From assembly GCA_016926475.1 (NCBI GenBank), contig JAFGON010000078.1:1-16600 (forward strand): 16,600 bases of DNA, given 5' to 3'. This DNA comes from a candidate division WOR-3 bacterium. Its GTDB lineage: Bacteria; SDB-A. Positions 940 through 5,464 of the stretch are shown in pieces. The notes under the pieces were generated by a model, which saw nothing but the letters and a program-made list of their open reading frames with translations, was not told the DNA's origin and made no database searches. The translations under genes were made by a program, and so were the position numbers. Position 1 is the stretch's first letter, and each line of letters starts with the position of its first letter.

Positions 940-1218
940 TTAAATTTTCCCCTTCAATGGATGATCAGCTACCCAGCCGGCTTGACTTTCGTATGGAACA
1001 AACATTACTTTGAGGTCCGCCACGTCTTCGCTGTCGGTCCACATCATTTTACTTGTAGCCTTTTCTTCGTGATCCACGTAATACCAGATGAAGTCGTCTT
1101 CAGCCGCGTCTTCAGAATCGCATATATAGACCATTATATCTGCCTGTGATTCAAATTTAACTTCCAGAATTCTATGATCGGCCTGGCTTTCGTAGTCAAC
1201 CATTAAAACTTTTGCCAA
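940..1218 (-). CDS. DUF6150-type protein made of six ESQAD-like repeats
   Basis: A 92-residue protein with no signal peptide or membrane segment. It consists almost entirely of six short repeats with a period of 13-15 residues: DYESQAD (8-14), KFESQAD (21-27), DSEDAAE (34-40), DHEEKAT (49-55), DSEDVAD (62-68) and PYESQAG (75-81). They are separated by hydrophobic beta-like stretches. I recognise this as the DUF6150 pattern; the function is unknown. I chose the TTG start at 1218 because a strong Shine-Dalgarno sequence, AAAGGAGGAA, lies just upstream (1221-1230) and the protein then begins MAKV, as is usual for such short repeat proteins. An ATG at 1203 is possible. A longer frame reaching 1281 would overlap the upstream ybaK-like gene and lacks such a site. 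The gap to ybaK is 28 bp, so co-transcription is likely. Confidence 0.75.
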   Translation of the reverse strand: MAKVLMVDYESQADHRILEVKFESQADIMVYICDSEDAAEDDFIWYYVDHEEKATSKMMWTDSEDVADLKVMFVPYESQAGWVADHPLKGKI

Positions 1219-1246
1219 TCTTCCTCCTTTTCCGTTTATAGAAATC

Positions 1247-1711
1247 TTATTTCGAAAAATAAAATATTCTCGACCCGACAATTTTTTTATATTGTTCTAT
1301 GTCCATAATGACAGAGTTTGTTCTCGAAGCAGCATTGAATGCAATTTTTGGGTTTTCAAAAACCGAATTATCAACAAATAAATCGACATCAATCAAAGGT
1401 CTTCCGAAAGGAGGCACGCAATTAGGTTCCAGCTCTGTCAATCCGAATAGTTCTTTCTCTGTCGCGAACCTGATTCTTTTTGCGTCGAATATTTTTCTCA
1501 GTGAAGATGAATCAATTTTCTTTGAAGCGCTCAGAATAAACATTAAGAATTTCCCGTCGATTTTCATAACTATAGCTTTTCCGCCGATAGAAATTTCTTC
1601 GCCCCTCGCTTTGGCTGACTCTTTTGAATTGAAAGTCGGTTCGTGTGATATTTTAGTATACACCGCTCCCCTTGAATCGAGAAAGTCATAAAGTTCTTTC
1701 ATTGTAACCAT
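1247..1711 (-). CDS. YbaK/ProX-type aminoacyl-tRNA deacylase domain protein
   Basis: A 154-residue single-domain protein, the usual size for stand-alone YbaK/EbsC/ProX proteins. Family features: an N-terminal helix and 'SHEPTFNSKESAKARG' (22-37); the GGKAIVMK strand (43-50) with the conserved lysine; the ASKKID segment; and the loop VPPFGRPLIDVDLFVD (about 98-113), the typical PPFG substrate loop. The family hydrolyses mischarged tRNAs such as Ala- or Cys-tRNA(Pro), keeping translation accurate in the cytoplasm. Which tRNA this one clears cannot be read from the sequence. Two ATGs are close together (1711 and 1702) and neither has an obvious Shine-Dalgarno sequence, so the true start may be MKEL at 1702. 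The gene lies between the GT9 gene (56 bp upstream) and the DUF6150 gene (28 bp downstream), all on the minus strand. Confidence 0.85.
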   Translation of the reverse strand: MVTMKELYDFLDSRGAVYTKISHEPTFNSKESAKARGEEISIGGKAIVMKIDGKFLMFILSASKKIDSSSLRKIFDAKRIRFATEKELFGLTELEPNCVPPFGRPLIDVDLFVDNSVFENPKIAFNAASRTNSVIMDIEQYKKIVGSRIFYFSK

Positions 1712-2802: not shown

Positions 2803-3657
2803 CTATTTTAATTTCTTCGCTCTTTTGTAAAGTTGACCCATGGAATTCAATTTCACACCCTCAAAAATTTTCATCTTGTTGATATCCCTGTAAATCATTC
2901 CGCATTCGTCTTTTAATTTTACGAGAATTTGAGACCTGATTTTTTTCCAATTTTTCTTGTTAAAATCTGCAAGCTCCAAAAGAACTCCGTGCTTTCTTTC
3001 CATTTCCAGAAATATTTCTTCAGGTTTTCTGAAAAGGGTTTTCGAGCCATCCGTAAAGAAACCTTCCGATGGTTCCCAGTTGCCGTCACCTATTATTTTT
3101 CCTCTACCTATATTTTTTTTCCGGAGTTCTGTCAATCCGTTTTCTCTGACATATTTTCTGAAATCATCTGAATCCCTAAACAGACTTTCGACGAATTTTG
3201 TTTTCAAAAAACCGCCTTTTTGGTTGAAATAAAAATTCGCACTCGACCACCTGTATGAAAAAGGGTCGGATGTTTTTCCTTCTTTCACTGGAATATTCAA
3301 AATATAAGCAAGAGTTTGGGTAAAAAATATCTTGTCCTGAATCACAAAAGAATCGTATCTGTCAGCAAAAACATTGCCTTTAGTGCCGGTTTTCCTTCTT
3401 ATATGATAGGCGAACTGGCTGTTCAACTGCCTGACGAAATCAGAGAGTCTTCCCGAAGCGTTTCTCAGGAGTAGATGAAAAGAATTATCCGTAAGACAAA
3501 AAGCAAAAATATCAATTCTGTGTAACTCTGATGACCCTTCCAGAAACTTCAAGAATTTGACCGCGTAAAAATCGTCTGGAAATATTTTTGTGGCGGCATT
3601 AGCTCTGGAATTTATGTAGTGAAAAGCATTTGCATATGTAAACCTCGGTTTTCTCAC
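2803..3657 (-). CDS. Degenerate Y1/HUH transposase-like (REP-associated tyrosine transposase type) protein
   Basis: A 284-residue protein whose first about 145 residues follow the RAYT/IS200-like Y1 transposase pattern: MRKPRF, a strand FHYINSRAN (12-20), IFPDD (25-29), FAFCLTDNSFHLLL (51-64), GNVFADRYDSFVI (94-106) and LAYILNIPVKEG (116-127). Normal RAYTs read PNHxHLLL; here the first HUH histidine is replaced by Ser59 and only His61 remains. The tyrosine in the YIxxxPV block (Tyr118) is kept. The C-terminal about 140 residues are basic and not recognised. The start is a GTG at 3657; a stop codon lies just upstream in frame. There are no terminal repeats of a mobile element, but an inverted repeat lies directly upstream (3664-3742). 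Family knowledge: RAYTs nick and join single-stranded DNA at REP palindromes. The loss of a metal-binding histidine suggests a repurposed or inactive protein. Confidence 0.75.
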   Translation of the reverse strand: MRKPRFTYANAFHYINSRANAATKIFPDDFYAVKFLKFLEGSSELHRIDIFAFCLTDNSFHLLLRNASGRLSDFVRQLNSQFAYHIRRKTGTKGNVFADRYDSFVIQDKIFFTQTLAYILNIPVKEGKTSDPFSYRWSSANFYFNQKGGFLKTKFVESLFRDSDDFRKYVRENGLTELRKKNIGRGKIIGDGNWEPSEGFFTDGSKTLFRKPEEIFLEMERKHGVLLELADFNKKNWKKIRSQILVKLKDECGMIYRDINKMKIFEGVKLNSMGQLYKRAKKLK

Positions 3658-4414: not shown

Positions 4415-5404
4415 TTACCTGCTTTCGTAATACTCAAAAGCGTCTATGATGTCAAGATAAACGCCGTCAAAACCGGCATCAATGATCTTTTTTGTGTATG
4501 AACTGTCGTTGCCGAAGATGATATCCTGCCACTGGGGATTCCAATATTCGACCCTGAAGTTCCCAGGCCAGTCAGGATTTTCAACACCCAACCAATCAGG
4601 AGGGTCCGTATTCCACTCGTTTTTCCAGTAGTACCTGTAGTCTTCAGCCTCTCCTATGCTCATGTAAGACAGGACCAGCCTGCTGCCTCCTGAATGCTTG
4701 TTTCCGATTGATTGTACATCATCATACGTCAGTAGAGTTCCCTGAAAAAAGGCGTCGACAATCAAAATGTCAAAATCAGTTGAAGAGAGCGCATTGAGGT
4801 ATTGAACTTTATTCTGGTATTGGTCTGGGTTTATCAGATACAGAAAATTTCTGGCATCTTCAAGACTCACAACATCCAAAAGATTTGCATGATAAGGGCT
4901 CGCCGGGTAAGCAGGAATACCGTCCAGCTCTCTCCTGTTCGCTGCAAACGAAATGTAATCACGGTCATAATTCATTTCGTATGAAGAATCCACGTATACT
5001 CTCGTCGAACAGTAGTCTGTAACCAGTATTTCAACACCGGTCGCTTCCGCTCGGTCGAGAAAACCTTTCATGTATTCTCTTTCCGCCGACGGTGTCGGGA
5101 CATCGTCATGGTCGTAACCGTAAAACAGGTCTTCTCTACCCAATCCGTCTATTGATGAAACGTATCCGGTTTCAATAGGGCCGTTTGCTTCACCGTCGGA
5201 TGTGATAAGTTCATTGCCGTTCTGAGGAACGACGATGAAATTCGGACTTAAATTTTCTGCGTAAGCACTTATTCCGCGAACGAAATTCCTCATGTCCTCA
5301 CGGTAATTCCTGGCCTGTCCCGGATCCGGTTCACCGGGGCTCTGGTTGCTGCAACCCGTCAACAAAACAATAAACGACAGCAAATAAACCAGCATTTTAA
5401 GCAT
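4415..5404 (-). CDS. GH114/TM1410-type glycoside hydrolase lipoprotein, apparently circularly permuted
   Basis: A 329-residue protein with a lipoprotein signal (LLTGC, Cys18), so it is probably tethered to a membrane facing the periplasm or outside. Start ATG 5404 has a strong GGGAGG site 5-10 bases upstream. The body matches the endo-alpha-1,4-polygalactosaminidase / TM1410 family, but the blocks come in swapped order. The family's usual C-terminal half comes first: DMRNFVRGISAYA (37-49), FIVVPQNGNEL (56-66), SIDGLGREDLFYGYD (84-98) and EILVTDY (125-131). The usual N-terminal half follows: NFLYLINP (186-193), FDILIVDAFF (211-220), YMSIGEAEDYRYYW (247-260), EYWNPQWQDIIF (286-297) and GFDGVYLDIIDAFEYYE (311-327). 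The protein stops where a normal member would continue. Acidic residues of SIGEAED and VYLDIID are present, so activity on a GalNAc/galactosamine-type polysaccharide is possible but unproven. Family assignment is strong; the permutation is judged from memory of TM1410. Confidence 0.85.
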   Translation of the reverse strand: MLKMLVYLLSFIVLLTGCSNQSPGEPDPGQARNYREDMRNFVRGISAYAENLSPNFIVVPQNGNELITSDGEANGPIETGYVSSIDGLGREDLFYGYDHDDVPTPSAEREYMKGFLDRAEATGVEILVTDYCSTRVYVDSSYEMNYDRDYISFAANRRELDGIPAYPASPYHANLLDVVSLEDARNFLYLINPDQYQNKVQYLNALSSTDFDILIVDAFFQGTLLTYDDVQSIGNKHSGGSRLVLSYMSIGEAEDYRYYWKNEWNTDPPDWLGVENPDWPGNFRVEYWNPQWQDIIFGNDSSYTKKIIDAGFDGVYLDIIDAFEYYESR

Positions 5405-5464
5405 ATCAACCTCCCGGTAAAAATATGCTCTTATGTTGTATGCGCGTCAAGGCAGTATTTGTGT

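Follow-up and report, generated by a model that had tools for sequence, protein, structure and literature searches.

The protein of 329 amino acids encoded at 4415..5404 on the minus strand of the window (the whole 16,600-nucleotide stretch of DNA analysed here) is circularly permuted relative to TM1410 and the GH191 enzymes, a conclusion that we regard as practically certain. Our reading as a whole, to which we give a probability of roughly 0.6, is that it would be an exported, lipid-anchored, permuted endo-α-galactosaminidase of GH191 type, with a single origin, that acts on a Pel-type polymer. The permutation is natural, is apparently of single origin and is spread across several phyla with the active site kept, and for that reason it offers a clean case of how barrels become permuted. 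Among TIM-barrel glycoside hydrolases a circular permutation has long been described for the GH70 glucansucrases relative to GH13; the window protein resembles them in being a permuted TIM-barrel glycoside hydrolase but belongs to an unrelated family. In the literature we found no paper that links GH114, GH191 or TM1410 with permutation. An earlier description may exist, and the 2011 work of Naumoff and Stepuschenko reportedly may discuss unusual domain arrangements.

The two halves of the barrel are exchanged

The open reading frame starts with ATG, and a ribosome-binding site, GGGAGG, lies 5 nt 5' of it (5410..5415, minus strand). The encoded protein is laid out as a lipobox signal, a short spacer and two blocks. 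Its signal peptide, residues 1-18 (5351..5404, minus strand), carries the lipobox LTGC and is predicted to provide a lipid anchor; the LPAM_1 profile gave a weak match to it that fell under the cut-off (E 0.46). The first block, residues 31-165 (4910..5314, minus strand), comprises what in a standard barrel is the second half (a4 and b5-b8) and contains the motifs PQNG, REDLFYGYD and TDYC. A joint, residues 166-185 (4850..4909, minus strand), then connects b8, the former C-terminal end, with b1, the former N-terminal end. The second block, residues 186-328 (4421..4849, minus strand), is the first half of the standard barrel (b1-b4) placed last, with the motifs VDAFFQG, SIGEAEDYR and DGVYLDIIDAFEY.

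When solved structures were searched with phmmer, the TM1410 structures 9euz, 9eux and 2aam were matched in two swapped stretches, residues 23-139 of TM1410 by residues 206-327 of the query (i-E 2e-26) and residues 148-238 by residues 33-133 (i-E 0.013). A profile built from 11 standard-order members gave the same picture: in the native protein residues 31-165 matched profile positions 143-279 (64 bits) and residues 201-328 matched positions 13-135 (148 bits). When the protein was rotated at residues 179-194 it matched as a single domain over positions 13-279 with 209.7 bits, and a doubled copy of the protein gave a single match of 206.8 bits that spanned the joint. By rotation against this profile the halves were swapped in all 34 of the permuted proteins tested, and in a leave-one-out test the 11 standard members all scored best at zero rotation or a few residues from it. 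No collinear alignment with standard members was obtained by phmmer, profile or rotation. The sequence-only reading had proposed exchanged family blocks at residues 35-140 and 186-329, and both the exchange and the ranges, which are close to those found here, hold; its statement that the protein ends exactly where a normal member would continue is correct to within about 8 profile positions but is not exact.

General family profiles see only parts of the permuted chain at a time. TIGR01370 reached 184.1 bits on the window protein (cut-off 181.25) as two stretches, and PF03537 passed its cut-off with 44.8 bits through positions 17-119 of 231, which correspond to residues 211-324. Because such Pfam and NCBIfam profiles catch broken halves, one half for PF03537 and two pieces for TIGR01370, permuted enzymes are easily under-called. 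The break in the permuted form falls after b4, at YLDIIDAFEYYE, ahead of helix a4. Both original termini persist in the joint, the C-terminal one as RELDxIPxYP and the N-terminal one as xxAKNFLYLI, and the permuted proteins have in common the joint motif NENxxDIxxLxxAKNFLYLINP.

The permuted chain is predicted to retain the GH191 active site

An AlphaFold2 model of the window protein was obtained with a pLDDT of 88.7 and a pTM of 0.86 from an alignment of 14 rows, comprising five permuted proteins and nine fragments of standard members; it took the place of a three-sequence model that was rejected (pLDDT 40). It can be seen in the model that the strands run b5-b6-b7-b8-b1-b2-b3-b4, so that the permuted order is reproduced and the b1-to-b8 order of GH191 is not found. 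The elements follow one another along the chain as a4, b5, b6, a6, b7, a7, b8, b1, a1, b2, a2, b3, three insertion strands, a3 and b4. The strands of the first block lie at residues 57-61, 87-91, 125-131 and 151-155 and those of the second at 186-190, 213-217, 243-249 and 314-318, and the three-stranded b3 insertion that is a feature of GH191 is present at 252-254, 272-275 and 282-285. When the model was compared with the PDB using Foldseek, the best matches were TmGH191 and Env-GH191, each over about 130 of the 329 residues, since a sequential aligner cannot follow the permutation; 5tcb was a further match. VIA-align, which is likewise sequential and cannot follow the permutation, placed unrelated TIM barrels in its best rows (Z about 11), and a structure search of BFVD with the model gave no match at E 0.001.

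The catalytic residues of TmGH191 are Asp156 and Glu225, and Trp121 forms a lid (Roth et al. 2025, PMC12054363). In the phmmer alignment to TM1410 these map to Asp318, Glu91 and Trp279 of the window protein. Glu91 (5132..5134, minus strand) is the predicted general acid/base and Asp318 (4451..4453, minus strand) the predicted nucleophile, and both are invariant in all of the 24 permuted sequences aligned. Trp279 (4568..4570, minus strand), the predicted active-site lid of the b3 insertion on the basis of conservation and the model, is conserved in at least 90% of the same 24 sequences. The permuted chain keeps the catalytic residues and the lid Trp, so that the Glu precedes the Asp nucleophile, which is found 11 residues short of the C-terminus. 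The chain begins with helix a4, continues through b5-b8, passes by a joint of about 20 residues to b1 and ends just past b4, and we suggest that it would fold to a normal active site.

TM1410-like enzymes are now placed in CAZy family GH191, separate from GH114 (PMC12054363), which refines the earlier label of a GH114/TM1410 enzyme. The window protein is homologous to GH191 (TM1410/TmGH191 and Env-GH191; NCBIfam TIGR01370, MJ1477/TM1410) across the whole barrel, has about 40% identity with it in the b2-b4 half, and has the same catalytic Asp and Glu, three-stranded b3 insertion and Trp lid; it differs in its exchanged barrel halves, its new b8-b1 joint and the lipoprotein signal ahead of a4. 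With GH114 (Ega3, FsGH114; PF03537) it has in common the fold superfamily and a C-terminal half that matches PF03537 over the cut-off, but the full-length PF03537 domain that is a feature of GH114 sensu stricto is absent, only half of the protein being spanned, the order is permuted, and the protein is nearer to GH191. Sequence, active site and fold agree and strand order differs, and the protein is best called a member of a circularly permuted subgroup of GH191-type enzymes.

Genomic context and the putative substrate

Env-GH191 cleaves Pel (PMC12054363), and a separate PelA-hydrolase (PelAH) encoded beside the Bacillus cereus pel operon limits biofilm (PMC7112168). By analogy we consider it probable that the permuted enzymes also have a Pel-type substrate. 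They would cut partly deacetylated alpha-1,4 GalN/GalNAc polymers of this type. Cells with a pel operon might use the enzyme to trim their own matrix, and cells without one, as in the case of the window's genome, to attack that of neighbours. With the PelA hydrolase (GH166) and the separate PelAH of Gram-positive pel loci the permuted proteins would have in common a matrix hydrolase role alongside pel genes, and with the PelA hydrolase a related fold (the Foldseek match 5tcb); they belong to another sequence family with another strand order, and the window protein is a lipoprotein without a fused deacetylase.

A link with pel genes is seen in two phyla. In Cetobacterium the permuted gene is followed by genes for a GAF protein, a DUF2194 protein and a hypothetical protein and then by pelF and pelG, while in Fusobacterium vincentii pelF and pelG lie directly upstream of it. 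The latter record (L059, NZ_CP084075.1) is a 2.1-Mb 'plasmid', which from its size is probably a mislabelled chromosome. In three Bacteroidota (L109, L114 and L124) the order is permuted gene, PelF (159 bits in L124, cut-off 100), PelG-like protein, standard-order GH114 protein, membrane protein and DUF2194. Placement in a pel operon was found in L059, L060, L061, L109, L114 and L124. PelF also passed its cut-off in 18 of 22 Bacteroidota carriers of the permuted gene and in 1 of 15 non-carriers (Fisher 7e-6), a figure that overstates the strength of the co-occurrence because of relatedness among the carriers; most Bacteroidota carriers do not have PelF next to the permuted gene. This link in Bacteroidota and Fusobacteriota, whose Pel systems lie outside the papers cited here, makes the permuted proteins candidate matrix hydrolases.

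A potential explanation that would keep the same permuted fold is that the enzymes act on another amino-sugar polymer, for example a cell-wall or capsule galactosaminan, the pel link being confined to some lineages. At E 1e-20 PelF was absent from the genome of the window and from those of its three closest relatives, and most carriers outside the Bacteroidota also had none that passed the cut-off; in the window the gene stands alone, outside any pel or polysaccharide operon. In addition, TM1410 itself showed neither activity nor binding on the substrates tested and its substrate is not known (PMC12054363). Against this stand the recurrent pel-operon placement in two phyla and the intact GH191 active site, and we consider a non-Pel substrate possible but on balance doubtful. 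The neighbours in the window, a DUF1848 gene, an IS200-type transposase-like gene and a heptosyltransferase-like gene, suggest no pathway. The IS200-type (Y1) transposase-like gene (2803-3657, minus strand) has a weak Pfam match and is found in the same place within the genus. A small open reading frame at 940-1281 (minus strand) contains repeated ESQAD / SEDxAD motifs.

Distribution and origin of the permuted form

Searches for relatives with the same order of halves returned large numbers, which agrees with the suggestion of the sequence-only reading that a permuted subgroup may lie in databases without being described as such. Including that of the window, 42 permuted proteins were collected from Bacteroidota, Fusobacteriota and many unnamed families, and two more came from viral contigs. 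Full-length relatives collinear with the window protein were found in one Bacteroidales and one Flavobacteriales genome, in Cetobacterium somerae, in Fusobacterium vincentii and in 24 of 395 Bacteroidota genomes. In a broad sample of 386 genomes, 14 of the 46 with a TIGR01370 match had such members.

A tree was built from the 42 permuted proteins, rotated back to standard order, and 28 standard members. The permuted proteins formed one clade in this tree (support 100/96), as they did after the viral-contig proteins had been added and long branches dropped (98/94) and in a reduced set (98/96). We conclude that the permuted form very probably had a single origin. In a single event two standard copies would have become fused in tandem and then have lost their outer halves; the presence of both old termini in the joint fits such duplication and trimming. 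The 728-aa open reading frame L078 encodes two standard-order domains in natural tandem, at residues 56-330 and 384-691, and these lie far apart in the tree. This shows that tandem fusions do occur in the family, but is no proof that one led to the permutation.

Two divergent, standard-looking proteins, L017 and L026, lack the N-terminal b1, and their C-terminal residues, about 25 in number, resemble the b8-b1 joint; scored as a b1 strand, these tails were matched or outscored by 6 and 8 of 3000 shuffles. The catalytic Asp is lost (YLT/YFT), the Glu apparently too, and the pair may be pseudoenzymes and may represent a second permutation. In the tree they come out as sister of the permuted clade (83/96), but another placement was not rejected. 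One tandem-duplicated ancestor might therefore have given rise to two permutants with the same b8-b1 joint, the window clade (b5...b8-b1...b4) and L017/L026, in which b1 alone was transferred to the C-terminus. We think this unlikely; if it were true, extant relatives would allow the course of permutation by duplication to be followed step by step.

The unrooted tree gives no direction, and the permuted order could in principle be ancestral and the standard order derived. This is very improbable, as the distant GH114-type outgroup consists entirely of standard-order proteins and the permuted clade is nested within the standard members, albeit with moderate inner supports (85/89, 81/54). It is also possible to imagine several independent permutations at one favoured loop, since the break lies in a single loop after b4 that may tolerate repeated cutting; the single clade in 99-100% of bootstrap trees from all three data sets and the common joint motif make this very improbable as well. 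An explanation by misassembly, a frameshift or a local rearrangement confined to one genome can be dismissed: nothing was found in its favour, and it is refuted by the recurrence of the breakpoint in 41 further relatives, whose sequences come from independent assemblies and include complete Cetobacterium records.

Relatives on viral contigs

An earlier scan of viral contigs returned none of the permuted proteins, and no relatives were found in named phages; the two viral members came from a profile scan. In both (L141:2059-3456 and L142:2041-3438) the permuted domain is C-terminal in a 465-aa protein, and the surroundings include a collagen-repeat protein of tail-fibre type (L141:3407-5446) and LRR_5 proteins. 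We consider the 465-aa protein a candidate phage-borne matrix depolymerase. Relatives of TM1410 in standard order are also encoded on viral contigs (L135-L140), and in two of these, L137 and L139, the catalytic Asp has apparently been lost.
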